Shown in pieces: positions 14,595 through 49,154 of a DNA stretch of 64,000 bases. Under the pieces are notes generated by a model. The model was not told the origin of the DNA. It ran no database searches and saw only the letters and a list, made by a program, of their open reading frames with translations. The translations under genes were made by a program, and so were the position numbers. The DNA comes from Pseudoclavibacter sp. AY1H1 (GTDB taxonomy: Bacteria > Actinomycetota > Actinomycetes > Actinomycetales > Microbacteriaceae). Position 1 is the stretch's first letter. Each line of letters begins with the position of its first letter. The stretch is taken from contig NZ_PSXX01000019.1 of the NCBI RefSeq assembly GCF_002931055.1, forward strand, positions 1 through 64,000, in the 5' to 3' direction.

Positions 14595-14643
14595 TCGTGT
14601 CTTCTTCCAGGAAGCGAGTTGAAGGCGGCCAAATGGGCCTACG

Positions 14644-14677
14644 TGGGTAATGGCCCCCTGCCACCCAGATTTGGACA
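14644..14677 (-). promoter_or_regulatory. S-type promoter S3
   Basis: On the minus strand: TGTCCAAA (14677-14670), 15 nt, GCCATTACCCA (14654-14644). It lies 50 nt before the adhesin start and is divergent from S9. Confidence 0.8.
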
Positions 14678-14766: not shown

Positions 14767-14800
14767 TGTCCAAATCACGAAGCCAGACGGGCACTACCGG
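14767..14800 (+). promoter_or_regulatory. S-type promoter S9
   Basis: TGTCCAAA (14767-14774), 15 nt, GGCACTACCGG (14790-14800). It points to the gene at 14866. S3 and S9 form a back-to-back pair 89 nt apart. Confidence 0.7.
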
Positions 14801-14865
14801 GACAGGGCCCTCCACGCGCATCCGCGCCCCCGTTCGACGGGCCTCACCCAGATCAAGGAGACCCG

Positions 14866-15276
14866 ATGACCCAGCCACGCCTTTCCACCCAGCCCGACCA
14901 GCCACTTAGCCGCCTGAAGGCGCTCGGTAACAACATCCGCCTGTGCGTGCCCGCACTCGCACCAGCCGTCAGAGTTCAACCCGATCAGGAACACTGCCTG
15001 GAGCTCGAGCTCTCCACCCGTCTCGCGATGGTGATCAGCACAGCCGAGGCGAACTGGTACCTGCGGACGAAACACCGCGGCGACCTCGGTGAAGCCCTCT
15101 CCCCCAGCACGGCACTGCAGATGCCCACTCGAGGAGACGCTCTGATCCTTCTCGAGGCCGTCGCTACCGAACTCCGCGCCCACCTGGAGGACCTCCGTCA
15201 CCGCCCCGCAGACCGCGATCCCGAGCTGATAGCGGAAGTGCAGCTGCGACTCCAACTGGTTCAGGAACACCTCTAA
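14866..15276 (+). CDS. Hypothetical protein, first gene of the S9 operon
   Basis: AAGGAG 8 bases upstream and promoter S9 fix this start. The 136-residue product is largely helical and acidic in its second half (ILLEAVATELRAHLEDL, about 94-110). No motif or family is recognised. It leads a group of three small genes ending in a helix-turn-helix protein, a pattern resembling the 5105-8695 region. Confidence 0.7.
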   Translation: MTQPRLSTQPDQPLSRLKALGNNIRLCVPALAPAVRVQPDQEHCLELELSTRLAMVISTAEANWYLRTKHRGDLGEALSPSTALQMPTRGDALILLEAVATELRAHLEDLRHRPADRDPELIAEVQLRLQLVQEHL

Positions 15277-20069: not shown

Positions 20070-20093
20070 CAGGTTGTTCCTTTCGGCTCTACC

Positions 20094-20127
20094 TCGGTAG
20101 TGCCCTCTGGAACGCGGGTCTTGGACA
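20094..20127 (-). promoter_or_regulatory. S-type promoter S10
   Basis: Minus strand: TGTCCAAG (20127-20120), 15 nt, GGCACTACCGA (20104-20094). It drives the FtsK/TraD-like operon. The rest of the 20070-20378 gap holds a hairpin and no gene. Confidence 0.75.
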
Positions 20128-21563: not shown

Positions 21564-21566
21564 GAG

Positions 21567-23759
21567 TTAGCGGAGGGACCGAACGGGCGCCGCAGGTGGC
21601 CCTGGTGGCGCGGCGACCGGTGCTGATGCCGGGGAGGCGTACTGCTTCCGGAAGGACGCGATGCGGGCTTCAGAGGCTGAGGAACGGGGGCGTGAGGGGC
21701 GCACCGTCGATGCTGCTGGACGCTCATTCGTGCTCTGCACCAGCTTCCCCCGTCCATCACTGCCGACCTCCACACGGTTGCCTCCGGGGCTCTCGACACT
21801 CGAACCGAGCGTGAGTCGCTCCGGCGCGTGCGTGGTGACCCGGACATCGGGAAGGCCAGCTTCTGCCCGGTGCGCGGTGTGAGCTGAGGCTGCAGCGTCG
21901 GGAGTTCCCGATTTGTTTCGCGACTGGAGCCCCTTAGTGACGATCTTCTCCGCGGCGATCTTTCCGCTCTCCGCTCCGATGGCACCCCAGCCGCCTGGAG
22001 CAGCCTTTGCGAGGCGGTAGACGACCTTGCCGGCCTCTGCGGCGCCCCGTGCGATGTCTTTTGCCTTGTCGCCGTTCGGCTCCTCCGCGCTCGCACTGTC
22101 ACGGGGCGACGGGGAGTCCGATCCCGCCACACCCTGCACACTGCTTGGCGGTTCCTCGCCACGTGGGCGCGAGGTAGCCGGGACTGTCGTTGACGGTGCA
22201 ATTTCCTGCTCCGCTGGCGCAGCGATCTCCGTGGAAGGTTCGGGTTTTTCATTCTTCGATGTCGTGCGGGTGTCGCCGAATTTCTTGGCCATCCGCGACG
22301 TCCTCTCGACGGCGCGGACGCCCATATCCAAGACCTGGACCGGGTGGAGCCCCGTGCCATCGGCGGAGTCCTTGCCCAGGCCCAGCTTGCCGAGCAGGCT
22401 GCCCCAGGTCTTGCCTTGTTTGCGCATGGCGATCGTGGCGACGATCAGACCGATAGTGATGATGAAGGTGAAGGTGCCGATCATCATCAGCTGTAACAGC
22501 ACGTCGAGGCCAGCAGCGGCGAGAGAGCGGGCGATGCTCAGGGTCATCGCAAGCGAGCCACTGAGCAGGACCAGCATGAAGACGACGGACACAAGACCTA
22601 GAACCATGTCGGTGACGGCTCGTCCCAGCTGTGGACGCCCGATGGCGGGGAGGACCGCGATGTTGACCCAGATCATGGTTCGGATGCCGGCCCAGATCGT
22701 GCTGAGAACTCTCCAGACGAACAGGACGCACAGAACCCCGATCAGGAACCAGAGCGCAATGCTGCCGGCTGACGACAAGTACGCAGCCAGTGGCTGCCAA
22801 ACCGACGGGTTCTCAACGTAGTTCTTCGCCTCTTCGTCGCAGCTGCTGATCTTGCTGCGTACGTCGTTGTTCTGCAGGGACGGCGGGCTCGAGATCATGA
22901 CCTCGGTGAACTCTGCGTTGCACACCTCGTCGAGGGTCTTCCCGAAGGTGACGGACTGTGCCGGCTGGCGCACAAAGATATCCACGATCTCCGCGATGAC
23001 GACTGTGCTGAGCGCAGATTTAGCCTCAGCCCCACTGTCGCCGTCGAGGTCGACCACGGCCCCTGTGCTTCCCTCGGAGCCAGTGTCCTCCACAACGGCG
23101 ACCGCGATCTCGGCGCCCCAGGAACGGACCGTAGCGAAAGCTCCTTCGGTGCCCTGCATGTTTACGAGCGGGTTGGCGAGCATCCCCACAGCAGCTATGC
23201 CGCAGGCCACCGAAATGATGATGTCCATGAGTCCTGCGGCTCGCTTTCCGAACCACATGGCCATGCTGCCCACGAAAGCGGAGATTCCGAGCGCAAACGG
23301 GATCCATTCGAGGCCCTCGAACTGCTGCTTCAGCAGTCCCGACCAGCCCACCACCGGGGCCAGCAGCCAATCGATCCATTCGAACTCGAGGAGGAGCGTG
23401 AGCACGTTGAGCGCGATGGTGATGGAGACCATGTGCCCGACCCACAGGAAGTCCGTCAGAACCCCGTAGATGCCCTTCTGCGGGGTCATGACGTCACCAC
23501 GGTCGATCGGTAGGAGGTCATAGGCCTCGAGTGGCACCCCGCTGGAATCAGTAGCCCCCAAGGCTGCGATGAGTTCGTTGCCAGGATCGGCGTAGGCGAA
23601 CACGAGATTGCCGAAGATGACCTGCCCAGCCCAAAGCGCGATCGCCAGGAACACCGCCGAACGGCGCGGGCGCTGCCGGCACCATCTCCAGGCTGAGCGG
23701 ATCTGCGCCCGGAGGCGACGTGGATGCCCTAGGACGCGACCGGCCAGGTGGAGGATCAT
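21567..23759 (-). CDS. VirB6/TrbL-like polytopic conjugation protein
   Basis: The 730-residue protein has a short basic N-terminus and about eight membrane helices in its first 480 residues. A large extracytoplasmic loop (about 205-320) contains paired cysteines. A long soluble, charged, low-complexity C-terminal tail (about 500-730) follows. This is the layout of monoderm VirB6-like channel proteins. It overlaps the VirB4 gene by ATGA, and the wall hydrolase starts 3 bases after it. Family-level sequence motifs are weak, so the call relies on topology and position. Confidence 0.8.
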   Translation of the reverse strand: MILHLAGRVLGHPRRLRAQIRSAWRWCRQRPRRSAVFLAIALWAGQVIFGNLVFAYADPGNELIAALGATDSSGVPLEAYDLLPIDRGDVMTPQKGIYGVLTDFLWVGHMVSITIALNVLTLLLEFEWIDWLLAPVVGWSGLLKQQFEGLEWIPFALGISAFVGSMAMWFGKRAAGLMDIIISVACGIAAVGMLANPLVNMQGTEGAFATVRSWGAEIAVAVVEDTGSEGSTGAVVDLDGDSGAEAKSALSTVVIAEIVDIFVRQPAQSVTFGKTLDEVCNAEFTEVMISSPPSLQNNDVRSKISSCDEEAKNYVENPSVWQPLAAYLSSAGSIALWFLIGVLCVLFVWRVLSTIWAGIRTMIWVNIAVLPAIGRPQLGRAVTDMVLGLVSVVFMLVLLSGSLAMTLSIARSLAAAGLDVLLQLMMIGTFTFIITIGLIVATIAMRKQGKTWGSLLGKLGLGKDSADGTGLHPVQVLDMGVRAVERTSRMAKKFGDTRTTSKNEKPEPSTEIAAPAEQEIAPSTTVPATSRPRGEEPPSSVQGVAGSDSPSPRDSASAEEPNGDKAKDIARGAAEAGKVVYRLAKAAPGGWGAIGAESGKIAAEKIVTKGLQSRNKSGTPDAAASAHTAHRAEAGLPDVRVTTHAPERLTLGSSVESPGGNRVEVGSDGRGKLVQSTNERPAASTVRPSRPRSSASEARIASFRKQYASPASAPVAAPPGPPAAPVRSLR

Positions 23760-26296
23760 GCTGCACCTCCCGCGGTCGTGAGCACGGCCTGGCGGCGCTC
23801 AGCTCGGCTCGGCAGCATGAACCGGACCTTGCCAACGCGTCCCTGAGGATCGCGCAGGAAGCCCTCACCTCGGCGGTGGGGTGGGGTCTCGCCGGTCTCG
23901 TCGAGCGGCGAGGTGTCCTCCACGAGAATGCGAGCGATGTCCCGTGCCGACTCGTCGAGGTCGATGTCGTCTCCGGACAGAGCGCGCTCCTCGTTGTCCT
24001 CGCCCATGAACCAGGCCACACTGCGCCGCGCAAGCGATGAGTCCCCGTGCCGGAACAGGATCCGCGTGGGGATCATTCGCCGGCCGTCTTCGTTGCCGAG
24101 ATGCTCCTCGGTCTGTGACGCCACGATGGCGCATGCGAAGTGCTTGCGTCCGTCGAGCTGGAACTCGTTGAGGTACCCCCTGCCTTCCTCGCTGATGGAG
24201 ATGTGGGAGGCCTCGTCGACGCCGAAGATCGCGAGCTGCTTCGAGTCGGCGAAGCAGTACTCGCGGGCGAGGCCAGCGAGGTAGGCGTAGTAGGCGCGCC
24301 CTGCGATGGCCTCCATCGGGAGGTCGTTGAACAGGTGAGCTGCGTTGAGCGAGGCATCCGAGGGGAGACGCAACCCCGCAGTCAAAGCGATGACGGCTCG
24401 CCGCGAAAGGTCTGCCGGCGGCAGGGAAGGGTCGAAGAGCACGCGCCCGAAGTCTCGATCGGCGATCACGTTCATGATCCCGTTGAGGTGCGCACGCACC
24501 GAGTCCCGCTCCCCCGCCGCGGTGATCCTGCGTAGGTCGTCCATGCTTCTGACACCGAGCTCGGCGATGTTCTTCGGGCTCAGGAGTGACGCGAGCTCGA
24601 TACCCATCGGGTCGCGCGGACGCACGCCCAGCATCATCGCCATGAGCGAGAACACGTGCTTCGCCCCGGCCTCCGGGCCGAGCATGCGGATCGGGTCCAG
24701 CGAGAGCTCCGGGTTCAACAGGTCAACGATCGCCGTGTCATCGGGCAGCAGCGACTTGGCGAAGACTGCGTACTCGCGAAGCACGGTTCGGTCGATGATG
24801 AAGGCACGTGCACCCTGGTCGATGTTGTCGCCGAGGATTCCCTTCATGAAGACGCTCTTGCCGCCACCTGGCTCCCCGACGATGCCGATGCTGCCGGACT
24901 TGTTCTCGCGGATGAGCGCCGCGATCGAGTGGCAGACCGGGACTTCGCGTCCCGTTGAGATGTTCGTGGCGATCAGTGACCCAGAGCGCCCGCCGAGCTC
25001 GGCGTCGGTGAGCGGCATCGCTGTGGCAAATTCTCGGCTCGTCGTGATCTGCGCGAGCTCTCGGACCAGCGAAGTCGTGGGCGACCCGGGCAGCATGGCC
25101 CACCACAGCTCTTCTTGACCGCCCAGAATCGGGTCGAAGACGAACTCGCTACTGCCGTAGACCGACTTGATCTGTTCTGCCTGCCAACGGGCGTCCTCCG
25201 CGCTGGGTCCAGCGACAGCAGCGATCACGGTTGCCTGAACTTCGACTTCCTTCTCCGAGAGGTTCAGCGACGCAGCGTACGACTGCAGCGCTTCCGCGAC
25301 GTCTTTGAGGTGTGCGCCACCACCGAAAGGTGACTGATCGCCGTCCTGCTGCTTCATCTGGTCGTTGAGCTCGTTGACCGCCTTCTTATTGCGCTGCTGC
25401 ACGACCTTGCCGGAGGAGATCTGCAGCCGCAGCGACCAGTCCACGGCGAAGGGGAACTCGTCGAGCTTCGCCAACCATTCGACTCCAGGTGTGCTCCAGC
25501 CACCCTTGGGGCCGCCCGTGAGGGCAAGCAGTGCCTGGTAGGAGGGTTCCTCCGTCAGAGCGCTCGTGACTTTCACGTAGCGCCGTTTGAACGGGTTGAT
25601 CCGGCCCAGCGAAGAGGTATCCGACTGGGCGCCCTCGTCGAGCAGCGGCTCGGGGATCACGGTCGGCCGCTGGAACGACACTTCATCGAGCGGACTGCCA
25701 GCAGAGGGCACCGCTCCATCAACGCCAAGACCCCGCTGCTGGGCATGCCCGAACAACCACGCGGTCTCGGCGGGTGTGGCCGCGCGAGGACGGAAGGGAA
25801 ACGGCAGCGACTGCCCGATCAGGTGAGCACTCTTCCTTGCTTTTTCCAGCGTGGAGGTGGAGGGGAACCGCCGCGGAAGCGCCAGCGAGTCGCGGAGGCT
25901 CGACTCAGCACTGTATGCGGCCCCTCGCACCCGGTTGACGGGATCATTCACCGCCAACGGCACAGCTATCCAGAAACTCCGCTCACCGATCTGCATGCCG
26001 GCGAGCTGATCCAAGGTGAGCACAACCTCTTCCGCCCACTGGGGGTGCTCCGCAACATCGACACCTTCGAGCATCCGTTCGACGACGGACACGGGATCGC
26101 GATCCGAGCAGACGCTGTAGAGCAGCGCTTCACCCCGGAGCGCGCGCAGGAGTGCCTGGTGGGCCATCAACGCCTGCTGCTGCTTCTTGGAGCTCGTGTA
26201 GCGGTACTCGACGCCCTGCAAGCGCCAGACGGCCCAGACGACGCCAGAGCGCGTCCACAGGAGATTGTCTGCGAGGGCAATGATCGGGATTCGCAT
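23756..26296 (-). CDS. virB4: VirB4/TraC-family conjugation ATPase
   Basis: The 846-residue protein shows Walker A GEPGGGKS near residue 478 and Walker B IFGVDEASHIS near 690, within a C-terminal VirB4/FtsK-HerA-type ATPase domain. The N-terminal 400 residues match the SCO6880-like region of actinobacterial VirB4 proteins. VirB4 powers assembly and operation of the transfer channel at the inner face of the membrane. It is separated by only 20 bases from the PrgI-like gene and overlaps the VirB6-like gene by ATGA. Length and motifs are normal. Confidence 0.92.
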   Translation of the reverse strand: MRIPIIALADNLLWTRSGVVWAVWRLQGVEYRYTSSKKQQQALMAHQALLRALRGEALLYSVCSDRDPVSVVERMLEGVDVAEHPQWAEEVVLTLDQLAGMQIGERSFWIAVPLAVNDPVNRVRGAAYSAESSLRDSLALPRRFPSTSTLEKARKSAHLIGQSLPFPFRPRAATPAETAWLFGHAQQRGLGVDGAVPSAGSPLDEVSFQRPTVIPEPLLDEGAQSDTSSLGRINPFKRRYVKVTSALTEEPSYQALLALTGGPKGGWSTPGVEWLAKLDEFPFAVDWSLRLQISSGKVVQQRNKKAVNELNDQMKQQDGDQSPFGGGAHLKDVAEALQSYAASLNLSEKEVEVQATVIAAVAGPSAEDARWQAEQIKSVYGSSEFVFDPILGGQEELWWAMLPGSPTTSLVRELAQITTSREFATAMPLTDAELGGRSGSLIATNISTGREVPVCHSIAALIRENKSGSIGIVGEPGGGKSVFMKGILGDNIDQGARAFIIDRTVLREYAVFAKSLLPDDTAIVDLLNPELSLDPIRMLGPEAGAKHVFSLMAMMLGVRPRDPMGIELASLLSPKNIAELGVRSMDDLRRITAAGERDSVRAHLNGIMNVIADRDFGRVLFDPSLPPADLSRRAVIALTAGLRLPSDASLNAAHLFNDLPMEAIAGRAYYAYLAGLAREYCFADSKQLAIFGVDEASHISISEEGRGYLNEFQLDGRKHFACAIVASQTEEHLGNEDGRRMIPTRILFRHGDSSLARRSVAWFMGEDNEERALSGDDIDLDESARDIARILVEDTSPLDETGETPPHRRGEGFLRDPQGRVGKVRFMLPSRAERRQAVLTTAGGAA

Positions 26297-26316
26297 GGGA
26301 ACGCTCCGCTTTCGTG

Positions 26317-26922
26317 TCAGTGGGATGAGGTTTGAGCGAGAAGACGCTCGACACCGGTGAGTGCACGTGGTGGTTGTGCTTCAGAAGCGGTGGGCGATGC
26401 GTCCACGACAGGAGGTTGCTCTTCGAGCAGCGGCTCGACGAGCGGTGTCCGAGCTTCCGCCACCGTGGGCGCGCTCAGCTCGACGGCGGGCTCCGCGAGC
26501 TGAAGACCCGCAGCCTTTCGTCTCGGCTGCGCCAGCGACCTCGTGGGCACAGGACGCGGGGGCTTCAGGCGAAACTTCACACCCTTGTAGGTGCCCGTCT
26601 GATGCGTGAAGACGGCATGTGCGCCAGCCGAGATCAGCAGCATTGGGTTGAGGTTGGTGACTGGCAAGTACCGCAGTGCGAAACCGACCAGCGCACCTGC
26701 TACCGCGGCTCCAAAGAGGGCGACGATCGTGTTGGGTGCCCACGCGTTTTGCGTCACCCACGCCAACGCGATCGTGAGGGCCGCACCGATCGCCTGGGCG
26801 AAGCTGTACGGCCCTCCGGGAATGCGAGCTCCGCCGGCGTGCCCGATCATCTTCGGGTAGCGGCGTGACTTTGTGTAGAAGCGAGCTACGCGAGTGATGT
26901 CGTGGCCAGCCTGGGTGCTCAT
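26317..26922 (-). CDS. PrgI/VirB3-like conjugation membrane protein
   Basis: The 201-residue protein has a basic N-terminus, two membrane helices (about 42-60 and 66-85, FAQAIGAALTIALAW and IVALFGAAVAGALVGF) and a Pro-rich cytoplasmic tail. A short PrgI/VirB3-like protein immediately before virB4 is a standard arrangement in monoderm type IV systems. It overlaps the VirB2-like gene by 4 bases. Confidence 0.7.
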   Translation of the reverse strand: MSTQAGHDITRVARFYTKSRRYPKMIGHAGGARIPGGPYSFAQAIGAALTIALAWVTQNAWAPNTIVALFGAAVAGALVGFALRYLPVTNLNPMLLISAGAHAVFTHQTGTYKGVKFRLKPPRPVPTRSLAQPRRKAAGLQLAEPAVELSAPTVAEARTPLVEPLLEEQPPVVDASPTASEAQPPRALTGVERLLAQTSSH

Positions 26923-27251
26923 GCGAGTGCGGGATGCGATTCGATGGTCACGACAGTGGCGCTGGATTCGAGTTCACTGCCGACGGAACCGCTGAGGTTC
27001 ACAAGACCGCTGCCCACGACGAGCCAGATCACGAGTGCACCTACGAGGCCCGAACTGACGAGCTTGACGACGGTGAAGCCGCCCTTGAGGGTGACGATAA
27101 GGACCACGACGCAGACGACGAAGACAACCGCCGTGTTGAAGACGGCGGTCATGTCGACGATGAGGCCATTCGCGCGATCGAGGATTCCTTCGGCCCGGAG
27201 GCTTTCGACAGCAGAGGTCGTGCTGGCGCGTGCGATAAGGGTGTCAAGCAT
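26919..27251 (-). CDS. VirB2/TrbC-like two-helix pilin-type protein
   Basis: The 110-residue product has two membrane helices (about 40-60 and 67-92) separated by a short KGG loop, the typical layout of VirB2/TrbC conjugative pilins and their monoderm equivalents. No classical signal peptide is present. It overlaps genes on both sides by 4-8 bases. The identification is by size, topology and position. Confidence 0.65.
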   Translation of the reverse strand: MLDTLIARASTTSAVESLRAEGILDRANGLIVDMTAVFNTAVVFVVCVVVLIVTLKGGFTVVKLVSSGLVGALVIWLVVGSGLVNLSGSVGSELESSATVVTIESHPALA

Positions 27252-28212
27252 TTGGTGTCTCCGTTGGTGTAGTGGTGAATGGGTAGGGGTCGAGTGACGA
27301 GACTTCCCAGCGGCCGTCTCGTGAGGTCACGGTGATCCAGGCCACGTAGGTATGCACGCTCTCCGCGGCCGCCGTCGCGCGAATCGTGGCCTCGAGGTGA
27401 AGGACCTCCCCGTTGACTGGCTCCGCGGGAATTTCTTCGTGAGCGCCGACTCGGACGAGGTCGATGGCGACGTAGTTTGGGCTGGTCGGCGGGGTCAGGT
27501 CAGCGCCTGGGGTCACCGATCGAGTGATGTCGCCGGTTCCCGTGAAGTAGGGCACGAGGAAGTCATTGGCCGCGGTCCATACCGGACTGGAAGATGCCAC
27601 CGCGGGGTAGTCACGTTTTGTTGTGTCGAGCCCTGTTTCCTCCTGCACCAACATGGGCGGAGCTACGACAGCCAAGGTGCTGTCGACGCCTGAGACGGCG
27701 ACCTGATACTGCCGATTGACCCACTGCATCTGCCCACTCGTTGTGACTTCGTTGACAAGCGCGCTGAGCGTGACCGTGAACTGCCCCTCGTCACCCTCAT
27801 CGACGCCGGCAACGACCAAATCGCGGTACTCAACAGCGACTGTGCTGCTGACCTCGAAGTTCGTGAGGAACTCGGCCAGAGGGGCGGTGTCGTCGCGAGT
27901 TGCCCGGAAGTACGCGCTCAGGAACTGCTCCCCGAAGGCACCGGCGCGCTGCTCTGCAGCCGTCAGCCCCACCGGGCTTGGAGCAGCTGCCACCGGCAAC
28001 GGCGCTTCGGCACTCCCGCTCAAAGCCCAAACTCCCAACCCGACCGGCCCGCACGCGATCGCCCCGAAGAGGAGCGCCGACAACGCCTTCGCCCCCATGG
28101 ACGCTCCCCCAGTCCACGCTTCCGTGCGCATCGGGGCGATGGTGTCTACCGCCTCTTCAACCTCGTCAGCGCCTGCGTCGTTCGCCTCTTTGGACCGCCC
28201 GAAGAGCTTCAT
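27244..28212 (-). CDS. TcpC/VirB8-like conjugation protein
   Basis: The start at 28212 forms ATGA with the small upstream gene and gives 322 residues. A short cytoplasmic N-terminus and one membrane helix (about 40-66) are followed by two extracellular alpha+beta domains (about 85-190 and 200-320) with FGEQFLSAYFRATRDD and FLVPYFTGTG, the tandem NTF2-like layout of TcpC. TcpC-like proteins form the wall-side scaffold of the transfer channel. The C-terminus is Thr/Pro-rich. Confidence 0.8.
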   Translation of the reverse strand: MKLFGRSKEANDAGADEVEEAVDTIAPMRTEAWTGGASMGAKALSALLFGAIACGPVGLGVWALSGSAEAPLPVAAAPSPVGLTAAEQRAGAFGEQFLSAYFRATRDDTAPLAEFLTNFEVSSTVAVEYRDLVVAGVDEGDEGQFTVTLSALVNEVTTSGQMQWVNRQYQVAVSGVDSTLAVVAPPMLVQEETGLDTTKRDYPAVASSSPVWTAANDFLVPYFTGTGDITRSVTPGADLTPPTSPNYVAIDLVRVGAHEEIPAEPVNGEVLHLEATIRATAAAESVHTYVAWITVTSRDGRWEVSSLDPYPFTTTPTETPNA

Positions 28213-28412
28213 GCGGCACCGCCGACGACTCGACGAGCGGATTCCATCGCATCCGCCGTCGACGAGCTCTGCAGAAGCGTCACGACCCGCTGTTGAACTT
28301 GCACATCGAGCGGCTTCGTCGCGAGCTCCAGCGCCGTGAGGCTGATCTCGTCGCACGCGGAAAGCACCGTGGCTTCATCAGCCCACGACGCGGTCTCAGT
28401 GGGTTCAGACAT
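28209..28412 (-). CDS. Small first gene of the type IV transfer operon
   Basis: The 67-residue acidic helical protein starts 32 nt after promoter S4 and overlaps the TcpC-like gene by ATGA. There is no membrane helix and no recognised family. It may be a chaperone-like or regulatory peptide. Confidence 0.65.
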   Translation of the reverse strand: MSEPTETASWADEATVLSACDEISLTALELATKPLDVQVQQRVVTLLQSSSTADAMESARRVVGGAA

Positions 28413-28443
28413 GGGAAGTCCCTCCGGTTAGAGCTAGGTCACA

Positions 28444-28477
28444 TAGGTAATGGCCGAAGGCGACGCTCATTTGGACA
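28444..28477 (-). promoter_or_regulatory. S-type promoter S4
   Basis: Minus strand: TGTCCAAA (28477-28470), 15 nt, GCCATTACCTA (28454-28444). It drives the seven-gene transfer operon 28412-20379. The remainder of the gap to the sigma-like gene is comparatively T-rich and holds no further S site. Confidence 0.85.
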
Positions 28478-28604
28478 GGCCGCCGGGAATCTTTTTTCTG
28501 CCCGTTTATCAGCCCTTTTTCAGACCCGTCCGGAAGTGACCAAGAACCCGGCCAAGACCCCGTGAGGACCGTGAAGAGCACCACGACAGAAGAGGTGCAG
28601 CTTC

Positions 28605-29333
28605 ATGTGGACTTCCGCAGAACACTCATGCCCGACCCAAGTCAGGCGCCACTGGTCACTCAGCTCGATGCAGGTGACCTCTTTCGGATCGCTCGGTGAA
28701 CACACCAGCGCCGACCTCTACGCGCAGTACCAAGCTGCCGACCTTCCCGAAACCAACGCCATCCTGCTCGAGCTCATCCGGCTCGCTCAGCTACGTCACG
28801 GGCCAGCGACAGACTTCCTGCTCTACGCGTTCCTCCCCCGCGCTCTCCGCCTCGCACGCGGCACCGTCGGCCTCCGCCGCCACGAAGTGCGGAACGCCCG
28901 GGACATCGCCATTGCGGCAGTCTGGGAAGCCATCCAGCTCTTCCCCCTGGACACCACGTGCACGAGCGTTGCCTTCAACCTCGGGGCGCGAACGCTCAGC
29001 ATCATCACGCGCACCGAGACGAAGCTCGCCATTGCCCCTGAAGACGCGGCCCCAGACGACACCCTCGAGGCCGCACTGGGCCCCGTGTCTGCCAACGACT
29101 CGAGCACCCGCGAGCTGCAGGAGGTTCTGCGGTGGGCCCGAGAGTCGCGCTGCCTCACCGCGGACGAGATCCGCCTGCTGACCGCCTACGAGCTCGGCGA
29201 GAAGCAAAGCCGCCTTGACCTCGCAACCGTCGAGGGACTCAGCGCTGCCGCCCTCACCAAGCGCGTACAGCGCATCCGCTACAAGCTCCGCGACGGCGTT
29301 CGCGCGCACATCGTCGAACACGGGCGCTGGTAA
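28605..29333 (+). CDS. Divergent sigma-70-like factor of the element
   Basis: The 242-residue protein has a helical region (about 65-140, FLLYAFLPRALRLARGTVGL then ARDIAIAAVWEAIQLF) that aligns in pattern with sigma region 2. The C-terminal helix-turn-helix (about 205-232, LSAAALTKRVQRIRYKLRDGV) resembles sigma region 4. A region 3 and a typical region 1.1 are absent. GAAGAGG stands 9 bases before the ATG; an internal ATG at 28668 is possible. It sits between promoter S4 and the partition genes. It is the best candidate to read the ten S promoters, which is a hypothesis. It could also be a sigma-like transcriptional activator. Confidence 0.65.
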   Translation: MWTSAEHSCPTQVRRHWSLSSMQVTSFGSLGEHTSADLYAQYQAADLPETNAILLELIRLAQLRHGPATDFLLYAFLPRALRLARGTVGLRRHEVRNARDIAIAAVWEAIQLFPLDTTCTSVAFNLGARTLSIITRTETKLAIAPEDAAPDDTLEAALGPVSANDSSTRELQEVLRWARESRCLTADEIRLLTAYELGEKQSRLDLATVEGLSAAALTKRVQRIRYKLRDGVRAHIVEHGRW

Positions 29334-29352
29334 GCCCCACCACAGCCAACCC

Positions 29353-29393
29353 GGCCCCTGTCGAGATCTGCCCCGCAGACCTCGACAGGGGCC
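29353..29393 (+). terminator. Terminator after the sigma-like gene
   Basis: GGCCCCTGTCGAG and its complement form a 13-bp stem with a 15-nt loop. Confidence 0.8.
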
Positions 29394-29530
29394 GTTGCCG
29401 TCGACGCCCACCGACACACGTCGAGCATGGGACCCTCCCATTACGCGCCTGTCGTGCTCCCTGTAGCTCACCCGTACGCTTCAGGCTGTCTATGAGTGCC
29501 TTGCCTGTTTCGTCTGGGGCGCACGACTGC

Positions 29531-29760
29531 TGTGCAGTTGGTACTCGCAGACTGTGCACCTGTTGCAGACCCGTTGCAGACCATTGCGAGTCCTGCTGTG
29601 TAACAGTTACGTACCTGGTTGTTGGTTGATGCGCATATGTTGCGTGCATGTTGCGTCTCTGATGCAGTGCTGTAATGCGTTGGTAGCGGAGCTGGTACAG
29701 AACTGAATAGGATCTGTCATCGCGCTGGTATGTGTCTGACAGCGTGTTGGTACTTTCCAG
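29531..29760. repeat. Repeat-rich intergenic region before parA (candidate centromere or origin)
   Basis: Five copies of YTGGTA (29538, 29680, 29692, 29725, 29747) and a tandem GTTGCAGACC repeat (29562 and 29573, period 11) lie in a region richer in T and A than its surroundings. CTGTCA-N17-TGACAG (about 29714-29742) is also present. Centromeres of ParA-type systems often lie next to parA as short repeats, and iteron-type origins look similar. No coding signal is convincing in 29394-29816. Confidence 0.5.
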
Positions 29761-29816
29761 GGGGGTGACACTGGAGTAACCTGAACCTATGCAGCCGAAC
29801 AACACACGAGGTGCTC

Positions 29817-30770
29817 ATGCCTGAAACTCTGACTGACTTCCGATCCCAGCTCGACAACGTCGTCGCTGAAGCCTCCATGAAGGGAGGGGTCGGCAAGACC
29901 TCGACGACCGCCAACCTGGCTGGCATCACCGCGGCATCAGGGCAGCGCGTCCTTGTCGTTGACCTCGATCCGCAGGGGAACCTCGGCGAGGACCTCGGAT
30001 ATCGAGGCACTGAACTCGATGACGAGGGCCGCCAGCTGTTCGACGCGGTAGCGATGGGGGAGAAGCTCACCCCCATCGTGGGCGTGCGCCCGAACCTCGA
30101 CGTCATCCCTGGTGGGCGCATGACCGGCAAGCTGACGACCCAGCTCGCCGGCGACGGCATGAGCGGCGTGGACGTCACTGAGGCCCTGGCCCGCGCGCTC
30201 GCTCCACTGGCGCCGCAGTACTCGCTGGTGCTCCTGGACTGCCCTCCCGGCGAAGGGATCATGCAGACCCAGGCGCTCGTCGCTGCCAGATGGCTGATCA
30301 TTCCCACACTTCCCGATGACGCGTCCAAGAGTGGCATCTTCCAGATCGCACGACGTGTCGAGGAGCTTCGCCGCTACAACCCGACGCTCGGGATCCTCGG
30401 CGTGCTGCTCTGGGGAATCGGGTCAACCTCCACTCGAGTCCAGGCGAACGCGCGAGCGGAGCTCCGGGAGATGCTCGGTGAGGACGTCCCGGTGTTTGAG
30501 TCCTACATTCGTCACGCCCAGGCCTCCGCCGTCGCCGCGCGAAACTCGGGCCAGCTCGCGCATGAGCTCGCGAAGGAAGCCCAGGACCAGGACCCGTTCG
30601 CCTGGCGCAAGCAGCTCCTCGATGGCGAGCCAGCGACGCGACGGATCGGCAGCAGCGCCGGCCACCTCGCGGCCGACTACATTGCCGTGACCCGCGAGGT
30701 ACTGCAGACCATCAACACCCACACCGCCCAGACCAATCAGGAGCCTGAGAACGAAGGGGCATCCGCATGA
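29817..30770 (+). CDS. parA: ParA-family partition ATPase
   Basis: The 317-residue protein has the deviant Walker A MKGGVGKTSTTANLA at about residues 21-35, VVDLDPQGN and LLDCPPGEG, the three classic ParA motifs. It lacks a long N-terminal helix-turn-helix, so it is a type Ib-like small ParA that would rely on its partner for operator binding. The ATG at 29817 (GAGG 5 bases before) is preferred to a GTG at 29811. It overlaps the ParB-like gene by ATGA. Confidence 0.93.
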   Translation: MPETLTDFRSQLDNVVAEASMKGGVGKTSTTANLAGITAASGQRVLVVDLDPQGNLGEDLGYRGTELDDEGRQLFDAVAMGEKLTPIVGVRPNLDVIPGGRMTGKLTTQLAGDGMSGVDVTEALARALAPLAPQYSLVLLDCPPGEGIMQTQALVAARWLIIPTLPDDASKSGIFQIARRVEELRRYNPTLGILGVLLWGIGSTSTRVQANARAELREMLGEDVPVFESYIRHAQASAVAARNSGQLAHELAKEAQDQDPFAWRKQLLDGEPATRRIGSSAGHLAADYIAVTREVLQTINTHTAQTNQEPENEGASA

Positions 30771-31387
30771 ACCCGCAGAAGAAGCCGCTGCCAAAGCTCG
30801 GAGATCTCCTGAGCGACATCCCCACCGTCGAGCCAATACGGCAGGCCACGAAGACACCCGCCCCTGCCTCCGCTCCCACCGCAGCCGGGAGATCGCCAGC
30901 CACCGCATCGCAGGACATCCCCGCAATCCCCGAGCCCGAGAGCAACGACACGGCCAAGGCCCCGAAGGCTCGCGTCGCTCAGCCCACCAAGGCGCCCGAA
31001 TCCAGTTCGACAGCCCTGCAGGTCGACGGATACAAGCCCATTCCTGTCCCCATGTGGACCGAGCTCCTGCAGCGCCTCGAGGCCCACCGGAAGGCCACCG
31101 GGCGATCCAACCCAACGATCGTCTTCGACGCCATCGACGCCACGATCGACAAGCTTCCCGACCTGCTCGCAGGCCGGGTAGCAAGCGCACCCACCGCGAA
31201 GTCGCTCTTCGACCGCGAAGACCTCCGCGTCCACCAGGAACGACGGAACACAGAACGCATCAACATCCGCATTCGCGACAGCAACCGCACCGTGCTCGAC
31301 GAACTCGTGAAGCAGGTCGGTGCCCCCGACCGATCTGCCATGATCACCGCCGCGCTCGACTCCTACCTGCCGGAGATCTCCCACTGA
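30767..31387 (+). CDS. Non-canonical ParB-like centromere-binding protein
   Basis: The 206-residue product has a disordered Ala/Pro-rich N-terminal half, with a basic segment that could stimulate ParA ATPase. The C-terminal half (about 95-206) has NIRIRDSNRTVLDELVKQVGAPDRSAMITAAL, which fits a ribbon-helix-helix DNA-binding unit. It lacks the ParB/Srx nuclease-fold motifs of chromosomal ParB. Position and ATGA coupling to parA make it the likely centromere binder. Confidence 0.75.
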   Translation: MNPQKKPLPKLGDLLSDIPTVEPIRQATKTPAPASAPTAAGRSPATASQDIPAIPEPESNDTAKAPKARVAQPTKAPESSSTALQVDGYKPIPVPMWTELLQRLEAHRKATGRSNPTIVFDAIDATIDKLPDLLAGRVASAPTAKSLFDREDLRVHQERRNTERINIRIRDSNRTVLDELVKQVGAPDRSAMITAALDSYLPEISH

Positions 31388-31425
31388 TCGACACCTGCTG
31401 TCCTTACTGATTCGAGGCCAGCAGG

Positions 31426-31459
31426 TGTCCAAACGGCACGTAACGGATGCCAATACGTA
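31426..31459 (+). promoter_or_regulatory. S-type promoter S7
   Basis: TGTCCAAA (31426-31433), 15 nt, GCCAATACGTA (31449-31459). It heads the Tad machinery operon 31582-36366, leaving a leader of about 120 nt with no gene. Confidence 0.75.
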
Positions 31460-31581
31460 GGTAGCGACCAAAGGTCGCGCAACGAACTCAACGCCAGCGA
31501 ACACGCCACAGGTCGACCGCCCAACAACGCGGCCCGATGAGAGGCGCTGTCACCTGGTGACACGAACGGGGACGAAGAACC

Positions 31582-32265
31582 ATGACGACAGAACCATCGA
31601 CAGCCACGAAGCCACCGCGAGCGTCCGCCCGCCGAGGAGTGCAACCGGCAGCAACCCAGCCCGCCACCAAGCGGCGGCGCAGCACCGCTCTCATCGCCGG
31701 AGGCATGGCCATGGTCATCGTCGGTGGCCTGACCAGCTACTTCCTGTTCACCAGCATCACGCACAGCGACACCGTCGTGACAACCGCAACGAACGTCTCC
31801 CGCGGCGACATCATCGAGGCCACTGATCTCGGCACGATCGAGATCACGGGCGGGCAGAGCGCTGCGACCCTGAGCGTCGACGACATCGACAGCCTCATCG
31901 GCCAGGTCGCGGCCACCGACCTCCCCAAGGGCGCCCTGCTCAGCGCCGAGTCAGTGGGGAGCTCCACGAACGTCCCGGCCGATCAGTCCATCGTGGGCAT
32001 CGCCCTCGCCGGCGGCCAGCTGCCGAGCACCCCGCTCGTTGCCGGAGACACCGTGCGCATCGTGGCGACTCCGCTTGCGCAGAGCGACGTCCCCGGGGTC
32101 GAACCCACGACCATCGCAGCGACCGTCTACGCCATCGGACACGACGAACGCAGCGGTAGCACGATCGTCAACGTCCAAGTCCCCGCGAACCAAGCGGCGC
32201 TCGTCGCGGCACACGCGGCTACCGGTCGCGTCGCCGTCGTGCTCGACGCGGGTGGGGCGGCCTGA
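31582..32265 (+). CDS. SAF-domain protein, CpaB/RcpC-like, of the Tad pilus
   Basis: The 227-residue protein has a Lys/Arg-rich N-terminus, one membrane helix (about 35-56) and an extracytoplasmic SAF-type domain with NVSRGDIIEATDLGTIEI and TDLPKGALLSAESV, ending in a beta-rich region. In diderms CpaB/RcpC contacts the secretin; in monoderms its partner is unknown, and wall-sugar binding has been proposed for SAF domains. First gene of the operon. Confidence 0.8.
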   Translation: MTTEPSTATKPPRASARRGVQPAATQPATKRRRSTALIAGGMAMVIVGGLTSYFLFTSITHSDTVVTTATNVSRGDIIEATDLGTIEITGGQSAATLSVDDIDSLIGQVAATDLPKGALLSAESVGSSTNVPADQSIVGIALAGGQLPSTPLVAGDTVRIVATPLAQSDVPGVEPTTIAATVYAIGHDERSGSTIVNVQVPANQAALVAAHAATGRVAVVLDAGGAA

Positions 32266-32266
32266 C

Positions 32267-33094
32267 GTGGCACTCATCGCACTCTGCTCGATCGGCCACA
32301 GCGCAGGAACAACGACCACAGCCGTTGCCCTCACCATGAACTGGCCCCGGCCCGCGCTCCTCGTCGAGGCCGACCCGCGCTACACCTCCACCGTCCTGGC
32401 CGGTCACTTCCGCGGCCAGGTCGCACCGACCATCGGGCTGTCGCAGCTCTCGGCTCTCGCTGGCACAGCCGGATCCGTCACCGCGCAGCAGGTGTTCGAG
32501 CAGAGCCTCGAGCTCGCGCCCGAGCGCTACTTGGTCCCCGGTTTCGCGAGCCTGGGCGCTGCCCGTGGCGCGAGCGCATTCTGGCGCCACCTAGTCACGT
32601 CGCTTGCGGCCTTCCGCTCGAGCACCATGGACGTCCTGGTCGACCTCGGCTCGTTCACGCCGACAGATCCCGCACGCGCACAGGTCATCACGGCCGCAGA
32701 CCTCACAACTGTTGTGACCGGCAGCACCCTGCCAGACCTCGCCAGTCTTGTCGCCCGGGTGAACGACCACACCACCGTGCTCAACGAACTGCAGGCCATG
32801 ATCTCCGAGACCGGACGCGCTGAACGCCTCGCGGCGATCCTGATCGATCGCGCGACCGAGAACTACTCCCCACGTGAAGTCGAGCGAGCCGCCGGCATCC
32901 CCGTCCTCGGACACGTGCCATGGGCGCCGGAATCCGCGGCGAAGTACTCCCTCGGGAAGAGCGCACGCGATCGCCGAGACCGATACGCCAACTCGATCCG
33001 AGCAACGGGGGAGCGGCTCACCCAGTACGCCAGCCGCAACGATGCCGTCGTGAACGGCTCCACGCAGAACCCAAGGAGCGCGACACATGTCTGA
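32267..33094 (+). CDS. TadZ/CpaE-like MinD-family protein with altered Walker A
   Basis: A GTG start one base after the previous stop gives 275 residues. The N-terminus ALCSIGHSAGTTTTAVAL occupies the Walker A position, but the signature lysines are absent (GHSAGTTTT in place of KGGVGKT). VLVDLGSF and a RATENYSPREVE segment correspond to the later MinD-family motifs. TadZ proteins localise the pilus machine and many are degenerate ATPases. It overlaps the TadA gene by 8 bases. Confidence 0.75.
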   Translation: MALIALCSIGHSAGTTTTAVALTMNWPRPALLVEADPRYTSTVLAGHFRGQVAPTIGLSQLSALAGTAGSVTAQQVFEQSLELAPERYLVPGFASLGAARGASAFWRHLVTSLAAFRSSTMDVLVDLGSFTPTDPARAQVITAADLTTVVTGSTLPDLASLVARVNDHTTVLNELQAMISETGRAERLAAILIDRATENYSPREVERAAGIPVLGHVPWAPESAAKYSLGKSARDRRDRYANSIRATGERLTQYASRNDAVVNGSTQNPRSATHV

Positions 33095-34628
33095 ATCCGT
33101 GAACTCACCCGCTGACATCGCCTCTCTGCCGCTCTTCCTCACGAGCGCGGCGACGCCCACCGAACAGGCACACGTCTCGCATTCGAATCTCCAAGCAGCC
33201 TCCACCCTGCGCGCCCCCAGCTTCTCGAGACCACCGCAAGTCACTCCGGCCAGTACTACGCCGTCCGCAGCGACCGAAGCAGCGCACGACAGCCACCTGG
33301 AGTGGGATCTCATCAGCCAACTCCGCCAGCGCGTGTCAGAGCTCCTCTCCACCGCCATCGAGGCGAACCCCGGCATCACTGAGGCCGAGCAGCACGCCCA
33401 GGCACAGGCGCACATCCTCGAGGTCATCGAGCAGCACATTCACGAACAGATCCGCGTCTCCGGACAGGACGCCGCGTGGTCCATGGCGCGACGCGAATCC
33501 ACCGCGAAGGCACTGTTCGATGGGATCTTCAAGCTCGGCCGGCTCCAACCGCTCGTCGACGACCCCATGGTCGAGAACATCGACATCTACGGCGACCAAG
33601 TCTGGGTATCGAAGAGCGATGGGAGCCGCGAACAGCACCCACCGATCGCGCGCAACGACGCGGAGCTCGTCGCCGACATCGCGTTCCTCGCGCAGAGGTC
33701 GGGAAACGGCGCGGAGCCGCGCAACTTCACCTCCGTCGATCCCCTCCTAGACATGGACCTCCCCGGTGGAGCGCGTCTCGCCGCCGTCCATCCCGTTATC
33801 GCGCACCGGCCCAAGGCCGTCATCCGCGTCCACCGCCTCGTTGACGTCACCCTGGAATCGCTCGTCAAGGAGCACGGCACGCTCACCAGCGACGCCGCCG
33901 CGTTCCTGACGGCCGCGGTCGAAGCCGGACACAGCGTCGTTGTCGCCGGCCTCCCCGGTGCCGGCAAGACGACCCTGGTGCGCGCCCTCGCCGCAGCGAT
34001 CCCGGCACACGAGAAAATCGTGACGATCGAGAAGGAGCGCGAGCTCTACCTCGAGCGCATCGGACGTAACCACATCGTCACGCCGCTGCAGTATCGGCCC
34101 GGTCAGGGCGAGATGGGAACGGACGGCACCCGAGCCGGTGCTGTCACGCTCGTGGAGCTGCTCGAAGAGAGCCTGCGCCTCGACGCGACACGCATCATCG
34201 TTGGCGAGGTCCGTGGCGGTGAGGTGGACGCGATGTTCCAGGCCATGCAGGCAGGGGCCGGCTCCATCTCGACCATCCACGCGCTCTCGCCCACGAACAC
34301 CGTGGAGCGCCTCGCGTCACTCTCCCTGCGCAACCTCGGGTCGACGGACGCCTACGCCTATCGACAGATCGCACAGCACATCGACCTGGTCGTGCAGATC
34401 CAGCGCGTCTTCGACGAGACCGGCCGGCCGAAGCGTCGCGTCACGCACATCGCAGAAATTCAGCCCGGAGAAATCATCGGGGGAGTGCAACGCCCGATCG
34501 CCGCCGACCTCTTCGCCCGCTCATGGAGAGGAGCCGAACTCGAGCGCGTGGCTCGCCCCACGCCGCACATGCTCGAGGCAGTCGAGCACCACGGCTACCT
34601 CGGCTTCCGTGAAAGCGAGCACGCCTGA
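33087..34628 (+). CDS. tadA: TadA/CpaF secretion ATPase
   Basis: The 513-residue protein has a long N-terminal domain and a C-terminal VirB11-like ATPase with Walker A GLPGAGKT (about residues 290-297), the Asp box TIEKERELYLE, Walker B IIVGEVRGGEVDAM and the His box ISTIHA. It powers assembly of Tad/Flp pili from the cytoplasmic face. Length is normal for the family. Confidence 0.95.
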   Translation: MSESVNSPADIASLPLFLTSAATPTEQAHVSHSNLQAASTLRAPSFSRPPQVTPASTTPSAATEAAHDSHLEWDLISQLRQRVSELLSTAIEANPGITEAEQHAQAQAHILEVIEQHIHEQIRVSGQDAAWSMARRESTAKALFDGIFKLGRLQPLVDDPMVENIDIYGDQVWVSKSDGSREQHPPIARNDAELVADIAFLAQRSGNGAEPRNFTSVDPLLDMDLPGGARLAAVHPVIAHRPKAVIRVHRLVDVTLESLVKEHGTLTSDAAAFLTAAVEAGHSVVVAGLPGAGKTTLVRALAAAIPAHEKIVTIEKERELYLERIGRNHIVTPLQYRPGQGEMGTDGTRAGAVTLVELLEESLRLDATRIIVGEVRGGEVDAMFQAMQAGAGSISTIHALSPTNTVERLASLSLRNLGSTDAYAYRQIAQHIDLVVQIQRVFDETGRPKRRVTHIAEIQPGEIIGGVQRPIAADLFARSWRGAELERVARPTPHMLEAVEHHGYLGFRESEHA

Positions 34629-35485
34629 TGGCCGCCATCACTGCCCTCGCAGTCACCCTCACCCTCGCCGGCTTCCTCGTCTTCGGCCTCGGCTTCGCCC
34701 CTCCCCCCGAGGTGCGCAGTTACAAGCGCACCAGTGGCACGAGCGTCTTCGTGCAACAACTCGCGGCGAGCGTTGACCGGCGGACGCGGATCCTCGTTGC
34801 AGGTGCGACGCTCGCCGGCATCGGGCTCTGGCTCCTCAGCGGGTGGATCGTCTACCTCGTTGCGCTCCCGCTCGCTGCGATCGGCATTCCGCTCCTCCTG
34901 GGCAAGGGCAGCGTGCCAGCGCAGCTCGCTCGACTCGACGCGCTGGAGAGCTGGGCTCGCAACCTGGCTGGCCTCACGAGCACGGGAGCCGGCATGGAGC
35001 TCACAATCTCAACGAGCCTCGCGACGGCGCCAGAGGCGATTCGCCCCCAGGTGGCGACCCTCGTCGCGAGGCTTGGCGCCCGTTGGCGGACCGAGGACGC
35101 CCTGCGAGCGTTCGCGCAAGAGCTTAAAGACCCCACCGCCGATCTCCTCGTCTCGCACCTGCTCCTCGCCGAGAAGAAGCGGGGCCCCGGCCTCACTCGG
35201 GCGCTCGAGGATCTGGCGACAAGTATTTCGGATGAGGTGCGCGCTCGACGCGAGATCGAGACCGACCGGGCGAAGCCGCAGCAGAACGTGCGCATCATCA
35301 CCCTGATGACCACCGGCCTCATCGTGCTCCTGCCCGTCTTCGGTCAATTCATGGCGCCCTACAGCTCACCCATCGGGCAGCTGCTGCTCGCTGTGTGGCT
35401 CATCGTCTACGCCCTCGTCCTGGTCTGGATGAAGCGCATCGTCACCACGCCACCGACACCCCGCCTCCTCGGCCACCAGGAGTAG
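34628..35485 (+). CDS. tadB: TadB-like pilus platform protein
   Basis: The 285-residue membrane protein has an N-terminal helix (about 4-22), a hairpin pair near 58-92, a cytoplasmic T2SSF domain (about 95-215, with ALRAFAQELKDPTADLLVSHLLLAEK) and two C-terminal helices. The start overlaps the TadA stop by one base. TadB and TadC together form the inner-membrane platform. Confidence 0.9.
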   Translation: MAAITALAVTLTLAGFLVFGLGFAPPPEVRSYKRTSGTSVFVQQLAASVDRRTRILVAGATLAGIGLWLLSGWIVYLVALPLAAIGIPLLLGKGSVPAQLARLDALESWARNLAGLTSTGAGMELTISTSLATAPEAIRPQVATLVARLGARWRTEDALRAFAQELKDPTADLLVSHLLLAEKKRGPGLTRALEDLATSISDEVRARREIETDRAKPQQNVRIITLMTTGLIVLLPVFGQFMAPYSSPIGQLLLAVWLIVYALVLVWMKRIVTTPPTPRLLGHQE

Positions 35486-35487
35486 CC

Positions 35488-36366
35488 ATGTCCTTGCTCA
35501 CCTTCATCCCCGGCGCCATCGTCGCCATCGGCGCGGTCTTCCTGCTTCTCCCGCTGGCACCCACCAGGCCACAGCTCTCCGACGCGCTTGGGCGTCTCGG
35601 CAACAGCAACTTCGTGACCGTCGACTCTTCCCAACAGGCCCGCCCCGAGCGGGTCGGCACATGGGTCCAGAGCCGCCTTCCGGATCTGCCGTTCTTCACC
35701 ACCCCCGTCGACGACCTCGACCTGGTCGAGATGCCCTCGTGGCGGTTCTACTGGGAAAAGACGCTGCTTGCCCTCACCGGTTTCCTGGCACCCGCCGCGT
35801 TCGGGCTCATCATGCAAACCATCGGGGCCCTCCCGATGGGTATCCCCGCACTCATCGGCATCCCGCTCGGCATCGGGCTGTGGTTCATCCCTGACCATGA
35901 ACTGCGCCTCAAAGCGAAGGATGCTCGGCGCGAGTATGCGCGGGCAGTCTCCGTCTACCTCGAGCTCGTCGCAACCGAACGCCTCAGCGGCAGCTCCGCA
36001 GCGGACGCGCTCACGAACGCCGCACGCATCTCAACCAGCCCAGTGTTCCGCCGCATCCGCCAGGAGCTCACCCGAGCACAAATCGCCGGCACACCCCCCT
36101 GGACCGCGCTGAGCACGCTCTCCGACCAAATCCGAGTCCCCGAGCTCGGCGAAATCGCCAAAATCATGCGCCTCTCAGGCGACTCCGGAGCCTCGGTCGC
36201 AGAAACCCTCCGAGCTCGTGGCAAGACACTCCGAGTGCAGCTCCTCGCTGACGAGCACACGAGAGCCAACGAGGCCAGCGAACGGCTCTCCATCCCGCTC
36301 ACCCTGCTTGCTTTCGTCTTCGTCGGCATCATCCTCACGCCGCTGATGCTCAACCTCTTCAAGTAG
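35488..36366 (+). CDS. tadC: TadC-like pilus platform protein
   Basis: The start at 35488 lies 2 bases after the previous stop. The 292-residue product has membrane helices near 4-24, 90-130 and the C-terminus, with a T2SSF core (about 150-260) containing YLELVATERLSGSSAADAL and LGEIAKIMRLSGDSGASVAETL. It is the last gene of this half of the Tad locus and is followed by a strong terminator. Confidence 0.9.
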   Translation: MSLLTFIPGAIVAIGAVFLLLPLAPTRPQLSDALGRLGNSNFVTVDSSQQARPERVGTWVQSRLPDLPFFTTPVDDLDLVEMPSWRFYWEKTLLALTGFLAPAAFGLIMQTIGALPMGIPALIGIPLGIGLWFIPDHELRLKAKDARREYARAVSVYLELVATERLSGSSAADALTNAARISTSPVFRRIRQELTRAQIAGTPPWTALSTLSDQIRVPELGEIAKIMRLSGDSGASVAETLRARGKTLRVQLLADEHTRANEASERLSIPLTLLAFVFVGIILTPLMLNLFK

Positions 36367-49125: not shown

Positions 49126-49154
49126 CGAGTTTCCTCACCGTTGATTTGTATACA

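Follow-up and report, generated by a model that had tools for sequence, protein, structure and literature searches.

The gene at positions 28605–29333 (plus strand) of the window, the 64,000-nucleotide stretch of Pseudoclavibacter sp. AY1H1 contig NZ_PSXX01000019.1 analyzed here, most probably encodes the element's own ECF-like sigma factor, which would direct the host core RNA polymerase to the recurrent S promoters as one regulon (estimated probability, roughly 0.84). The analysis revealed a protein family of sigma type, a motif of fixed spacing that is confined to one contig and positioned before genes, and plasmid-specific versions of this motif on relatives. A preliminary description had proposed a dedicated sigma factor encoded by the element as the reader of the S promoters, and the family profile, the predicted fold, the position adjacent to the T4SS operon, and the plasmid-specific motifs all argue for this proposal.

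As had been described, the ORF, which codes for 242 amino acids, lies between an S site at 28438–28477 (minus strand; S4 of the preliminary description) and parA (29811–30770), whose product is a ParA-type ATPase according to Pfam. The 242-aa protein alone gave zero matches to Pfam and weak matches to NCBIfam, three of the four being sigma families (E 0.017–0.097). A profile built from 11 homologues retrieved the ECF sigma factor CnrH as its best match in the PDB (E 1.9e-5); this match spanned profile positions 82–233, covering regions 2 and 4 in the correct order, and the second-best match was another sigma factor (E 0.061). Weak matches to Sigma70_r4_2 were observed in 7 of the 11 family members, with a best E of 7e-4. 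It is at the level of the family profile, beyond that of single-sequence searches, that the predicted product is sigma-like.

An AlphaFold2 (AF2) model of the protein, computed from an alignment of nine rows, had a pLDDT of 73 and a pTM of 0.53. It showed helices within residues 66–140 and 166–239, a low-confidence stretch at 140–165, and an N-terminal part at 9–62. Residues 66–140 constitute a sigma region 2-like segment (28800–29024, plus strand), as indicated by the AF2 helices, the CnrH profile match, and the fit to an RpoS fragment (5h6x; VIA-align Z 8.9, rmsd 2.5 Å over 94 residues), and residues 166–239 a region 4-like segment with an HTH (29100–29321, plus strand), as indicated by NCBIfam, the profile, Sigma70_r4_2, and AF2. 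VIA-align Z values for the window model were at most 10.1; because helical models can give such values without any relationship, weight rests on their agreement with the sequence profile. Judged by their titles, all 50 Foldseek matches listed for the window model concerned sigma factors, RNA polymerase, or transcription complexes, with a best E of 1.9e-3. The model of the relative on L056 was similar (pLDDT 75, pTM 0.54), its 50 listed matches likewise bearing sigma, RNA-polymerase, or transcription titles. Confidence in both models is moderate, and for both none of the matches listed fell below E 0.001. A fold lacking a sigma2 clamp helix had been named as a finding that would speak against the proposal; sigma2-like helices were predicted.

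The preliminary description had left the choice among FliA, WhiG, and ECF sigma factors to structure prediction. The results pointed to an ECF-like rather than a demonstrably FliA/WhiG-like protein. WhiG (7lq4) appeared in row 38 of the Foldseek matches (E 0.23), and a low-confidence linker alone separates the region 2- and region 4-like domains, the absence of sigma3 being judged from length and from the model with its pTM of 0.53. Members of the FliA/WhiG group possess a sigma3 domain and use TAAA-type promoters, a type that differs from the TGTC..CC of the S motif. The description of the protein as consisting of regions 2 and 4 only stood for the two regions but not for the word "only", since a family-conserved N-terminal segment of about 60 residues (9–62; 28629–28790, plus strand) is present, inside which the VIA alignments to some SigA chains start.

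In the order of regions 2 and 4 and in its predicted fold, the product resembles ECF sigma factors of the CnrH, SigL, AlgU, and RpoE type. Homology over both regions was detected by the profile and not by the single-sequence Pfam search, and the S motif supplies a bipartite candidate cognate promoter with constant spacing. The product differs from ECF sigma factors in lacking a Pfam match of its own, in carrying the extra N-terminal segment, and in belonging to a plasmid-borne family that lies beside a T4SS operon. An autoregulated gene and an adjacent anti-sigma gene are common, though not universal, among ECF sigma factors. Here, the window motif search found no S site pointing into 28605–29333, and no conserved adjacent anti-sigma gene was seen in the nine plasmids viewed, in which the following gene varies.

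The S motif, TGTCCAA-N17-CCACTACC, was found at 10 sites in the window, against 0.05 expected from shuffles. The preliminary description had reported one fixed spacing, and the spacing was indeed 17 bp at all 10 sites though gaps of 14–19 were permitted; three extra matches, with three mismatches at other gaps, were left out of the count. An 11th site lies beyond the window at contig position 66078 (plus strand). In the 4.2-Mb genome of the strain, all 10 matches to the exact pattern fell on the 74,231-bp contig (C11) that holds the window, and the reversed control gave 0; the site at 6637 has one mismatch and is hence absent from these 10. Among 198 other genomes, the exact pattern occurred once in each of five and the reversed control once in each of nine, so that the five look like chance, and the window-protein search had detected no homologue in any of them. 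S motifs on elements without the gene, which had been put forward as refuting evidence, were therefore limited to these five matches, below the reversed control.

Known ECF promoters offer a precedent for this geometry. In the passages of PMC3426412 that concern ECF41, the promoter is given as TGTCACA-n16-CGTC, which shares with the S motif the TGTC −35 core and a nearly equal distance to the −10 block, and a TGTC −35 at such a distance is thus an established sigma signal. The −10 element of ECF41 is CGTC, whereas the S-type −10 block contains CC and varies between plasmids. According to the same passages, ECF41 proteins carry a regulatory extension at the C terminus and have COE genes as neighbours; the extension is absent here, as the 28605 product ends at residue 242, just past the helix at 214–239.

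Most S sites were located upstream of genes. The site at 28438–28477 (minus strand) precedes the T4SS operon (20379–28412, minus strand), which comprises a small first gene (28209–28412), a TcpC-like gene (27244–28356), a VirB4-like ATPase gene (23756–26296), a gene at 21567–23759 whose product had no match in Pfam, and an M23 peptidase gene. The site at 31426–31465 (plus strand) precedes the SAF/CpaB-CpaE-TadA-TadB-TadC genes, named by synteny; that at 51106–51145 (plus strand) precedes a Flp-pilin-like gene of 56 aa (51177–51347, so named on inspection) and Tad genes further on; and that at 20088–20127 (minus strand) precedes a 72-aa ORF and an FtsK/TrwB-like coupling protein. Further sites were found at 6637–6676 (plus strand), upstream of ORF 6765–7505; at 7523–7562 (plus strand), where the next ORF is 7645–8010; at 46882–46921 (minus strand); and at 49149–49188 (minus strand), upstream of ORF 48811–49125. 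The sites at 14638–14677 (minus strand) and 14767–14806 (plus strand) form a divergent pair, the latter upstream of ORF 14866–15276. For 7523–7562 and 14638–14677, a scripted search gave no start with a clear SD. By inspection, several S-type transcripts would open with a short G+C-rich inverted repeat after the presumed start; such repeats occur at window sites 6637 and 7523 and in L029 and L034.

The sigma gene itself was correctly described as having no S site before it; the nearest, at 28477 (minus strand), is divergent. A different block, TGAGGACCGT (28563–28572, plus strand), which is not an S site, lies 33–42 nt upstream of the gene start. Generalized to [TC]G[AG]GGANCGT, the block was present in 11/11 aligned relatives, and it is a possible candidate for the input element of the sigma gene. 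CAAGA/CCAGG-like direct repeats precede this block in several relatives. A-rich repeats of the GAAAAAG type were seen by eye in the interval that separates the S site from the sigma gene (28490–28560, minus strand), with equivalents at the same place in several plasmids, L027 and L029 among them. A search of window positions 27000–32000 against Rfam gave no match at the gathering threshold.

Relatives of the gene were found on 30 plasmid records by tblastn (up to E 1, 26–36% identity), the few weakest matches possibly representing other proteins. Their annotations read hypothetical protein in 27 cases and sigma-70 family in two (Rhodococcus qingshengii), and one record had no annotated gene. 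In all nine plasmids viewed in detail, the homologue adjoins a divergent T4SS operon. The next annotated gene after it is parA in four (pC1c, No7B, No7A, and paraoxydans); in two, parA follows an intervening IS110 gene (YJNG) or BREX island (pAL1), and in three (pC1b, Cff, and sediminis) it is located elsewhere. The BREX defence island of pAL1 (L032) occupies 20778–33572. On the R. fascians and R. qingshengii plasmids (L079 and L083), a cutinase-family gene directly follows the homologue. With the window protein as query against 199 relatives, 10 genomes, counting that of the strain itself, reached E ≤ 0.001, and in two of these (G113 and G118) the match was limited to region 4. A profile run on 396 genomes belonging to the order identified 18 at E ≤ 1e-6, again counting the strain itself; a profile scan of viral contigs (A3) found no relative. 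Two same-genus homologues stand apart: that of G004 (L003, C1:151658–152386) contains one in-frame TAA and may be decayed, and that of G003 (L002, C1:3110403) lies within a 3.99-Mb single contig among T4SS-like neighbours, which suggests that it is part of an integrated element.

Many relatives carry motif versions of their own, with TGTC at base 1, CC near base 26, and GTRAG near base 36. The plasmid-specific version was found in the intergenic stretch between the gene and the T4SS operon and, in several plasmids, also before ftsK and the SAF gene. Across eight types, TGTC was invariant (the search required it), C at bases 26 and 27 each reached 0.88, and GTRAG near bases 36–40 was weaker than TGTC and CC. 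The distant G165, Glutamicibacter pGnB68 (Glut68), and Xylanimonas pXCEL01 (Xyl) showed the same register with other sequences, mostly with T or G at base 1. Of the 30 sites (at least 14/17 letters plus TGTC) on eight plasmids with gene annotation, 28 lay 61–139 nt upstream of a same-strand annotated start, against 1.35 expected, the range having been set post hoc from the data. The two others were No7A 35232, at an annotated start, and paraoxydans 36466, with no later annotated CDS in the stretch; the 14/17 limit excluded pC1b site 9766 (13/17, 98 nt upstream of a start).

The specificity of each version was evaluated by taking the site adjacent to the sigma gene as template, a match being at least 14/17 letters and the counts including the template. 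Matches on the element of origin numbered 10 for the window, 4 for pC1c, 4 for No7B, 3 for pC1b, 5 for No7A, 2 for YJNG, 6 for sediminis, 3 for L056, and 1 for G006. On elements of other types, the templates had 0 or 1 match on most; the exceptions were the pC1c template, with 2–3 on YJNG-type elements, and the No7A and YJNG templates, which match each other's elements. The G006 template matched itself alone on its own 10-kb contig and two places on G003. Eight shifted spacings, used as control, gave 0–5 template matches in total. Other TGTC sites tried as templates did equally well in 0/461 cases for the window, 0/254 for No7A, 0/282 for sediminis, 0/270 for paraoxydans, 2/294 for No7B, 5/250 for pC1c, and 6/224 for Cff; by this comparison the template was unexceptional for pC1b (45/227), L056 (22/124), and YJNG (312/312).

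Among 38 homologue-bearing elements, near-identical ones included, 19 had at least two sites of one version (the window, pC1c, No7B, pC1b, No7A, YJNG, sediminis, pAL1, Cff, paraoxydans, L044, L045, L046, L056, L057, Brevi, G165, Glut68, and Xyl), and five had one site beside the gene (L055, L058, G006, G494, and R. qingshengii). No motif was found, in about 10–74 kb per element, on the other 14: G003, G004, G151, G189, G397, G175, G153, G338, G137, G075, Cellulosimicrobium pCPRO01, R. fascians pFiD188, Micrococcus pLMV7, and Glutamicibacter pGnpA106. By distinct type, 13 had a repeated motif, three had one candidate site, and 14 had none. The expectation that homologues and motif would co-occur in related plasmids thus held in that plasmid-specific versions recur, and failed on the 14 motif-negative elements, which may use other codes, have decayed, or contradict the general reading. 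They include G003 and G004, the two relatives from the same genus that scored highest with the window protein, and of the two homologue plasmids of Glutamicibacter OTC-16 the motif was found on one only.

De novo searches of whole elements for two-block motifs mainly picked up coding-sequence composition and were set aside. Without correction, such a search returned mostly CGACGA-like words. When corrected by other registers, the search ranked the S motif first in the window; the top five words of sediminis, G165, Glut68, and Xyl included the motif register, and those of the other 24 of 29 did not. A TGTC-anchored search of 30 elements was clear in the window only. In a prior-free or loosely restricted search, the true spacing came first in 8 of 38 elements, through the motif in the window, No7B, No7A, pAL1, Brevi, and Glut68 and through an unrelated candidate in pC1b and L056. 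Under a crude non-coding mask, it came first in 7 of 34 (four of the 38 elements had no candidate), with L055 and L058 again owing to an unrelated candidate. A three-part pattern was matched on the divergent strand in 12 of the 16 elements used for training (0.54 expected; sense strand, 0) and in 6 of 22 other elements (0.94 expected; sense strand, 1/22), which is not a blind test because the pattern was devised after several cases were known.

Two strains with co-resident plasmids bear on the identity of the reader. The comparison covered stretches of 34–41 kb. In Microbacterium sp. No. 7, the No7A template had 5 matches on plasmid A and 0 on B, and the No7B template 4 on B and 0 on A; in Curtobacterium sp. 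C1, the pC1c template had 4 on pC1c and 1 on pC1b, and the pC1b template 3 on pC1b and 0 on pC1c. Differing versions in two such pairs point to a plasmid-encoded reader, as a common host factor would hardly yield this pattern. Use of the S promoters by a sigma factor or regulator of the host, with the 28605 gene unrelated, is accordingly most improbable: the genome has 29 Sigma70_r4_2 matches, the ECF factor on C11 included, and so offers many candidate host sigma factors, but apart from this contig it has no exact S-pattern match.

The plasmid-encoded candidates were narrowed by gene content. A comparison of 422 window ORFs of at least 60 aa with 29 elements (ORFs present in at least 5 of the 29 being listed; the window ends before contig positions 64001–74231) revealed nine genes common to all 14 motif-positive elements: the three T4SS genes at 21567–23759, 23756–26296, and 27244–28356, five SAF/Tad genes from 31582 to 36366, and 28605–29333, which is the sole recognizably DNA-binding gene among the nine. 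ParA was absent from 1 of the 14 in the stretch covered. The same contig also encodes a conventional ECF sigma factor (1258–1866, minus strand), with clear Pfam matches to region 2 (E 1.9e-11) and region 4 (E 4.4e-14) and with SigE, SigL, and SigW as PDB relatives, and this protein might read the S promoters while the 28605 gene does something else. We regard this as very unlikely, as ORF 1258–1866 is missing from the window ORFs listed as common to at least 5 of the 29 elements, and Sigma70_r4_2, searched over the whole records of nine relative plasmids, exceeded the cut-off on two only: No7A (W04:27568) and No7B (W02:43024), the latter inside an annotated recombinase. The 1258–1866 gene overlaps by four bases a gene for a 169-aa protein (752–1866 for the two, minus strand); this protein had no match in Pfam and could be the anti-sigma factor of the ECF factor.

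Divergence of motif and protein was compared across 19 elements. Motif distance correlated with sigma distance (Mantel r 0.45, p 0.001; the elements are related and non-independent), the values being 0.38 for VirB4, 0.35 for another T4SS protein, and 0.24 for TcpC. Partial correlations, calculated as r values without p, were 0.27 for sigma after VirB4, 0.08 for VirB4 after sigma, and 0.35 for sigma versus −0.04 for TcpC. By eye, L056 and Brevibacterium share SRxALYQRV and the −35 sequence TGTCAGAT, No7A and YJNG share SR(D/E)TLNRRV and TGTCCGCG, and G165 and Xylanimonas share GTCAC. When sigma residues and motif parts were scanned for covariation in sliding windows, neither the −35 (P 0.63) nor the −10 (P 0.16) reached significance; near-identical elements were removed in one run and in the significance test. 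The best signal of the scan placed similarity of the −10 block, rather than of the −35, at the recognition helix, which runs against the simplest expectation for a sigma factor.

This signal, together with the HTH in region 4 of the 28605 product, would also suit operators: the S sites might bind a conventional activator or repressor acting with the main sigma factor of the host, and the sigma-like protein may be that regulator. Against this, the signal is not significant, the bipartite geometry is close to that of the ECF41 promoter, and the spacing between S-type sites and start codons is that of promoters. Moreover, a region 2-like domain would be needless in an operator-binding protein, and no other recognizably DNA-binding window ORF occurs in all 14 motif-positive elements. 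We therefore consider operators an unlikely explanation.

For a sigma factor as reader, we infer promoter reading, polymerase binding, the start site, and use as a transfer switch from these computed features. The 28605 product would associate with the core RNA polymerase of the host and bring it to the S promoters, of which 28477 (minus strand) would drive the conjugative T4SS operon, 20127 (minus strand) the coupling-protein region, 31426 (plus strand) the SAF/Tad operon, and 51106 (plus strand) the Flp-pilin-like gene and the following Tad genes; a few accessory genes would belong to the same regulon. With base 1 of TGTC set at −35, the second block would occupy −11 to −8 and GTRAG +1 to +5. 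The sigma gene itself, which has a different conserved block upstream in place of an S site, may respond to another signal.

Very probably, then, a mobile element carries its own transcription-initiation factor for DNA-transfer and pilus genes, with a promoter code that varies between plasmids, and we take the family for a new ECF-like group that would drive the genes of conjugation and of the Tad pilus. Phage-encoded sigma factors and plasmid- or phage-borne ones of the TcdR/UviA type are likewise brought by mobile elements, and their regulons consist of phage or toxin/bacteriocin genes; here, in contrast, conjugation and pilus genes are involved, with diverging promoter codes. It is an even chance that this widespread actinobacterial conjugative plasmid family, each member with a private sigma factor, insulates its transfer regulons within a shared cell through sigma–promoter co-divergence, as a compatibility barrier at the level of transcription. 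A sigma factor reserved for conjugation and pilus genes would account for how little-annotated actinobacterial plasmids switch on transfer, would give a name to a gene family that 27 of 30 plasmid records list as hypothetical, and would provide natural orthogonal sigma–promoter pairs, some within one strain. Among the open PMC papers listed in literature searches, none described a sigma factor for actinobacterial plasmid transfer in its title or the opening of its abstract, and neither "sigma" nor "promoter" occurs in the main text of PMC6305408.

A second, separate promoter group is present on the element. Three host-type promoters of the form GTTGACA-N17-TACACT were observed at 4216–4257, 4774–4815, and 4960–5001 (plus strand), against 0 expected in shuffles, with a related one near 3630–3680. 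Each of the three is followed by TTAGTAACTGTCA, and at two places, near 3660 and 4250, this sequence is extended to the palindrome TTAGTAAC..GTTACTAA.
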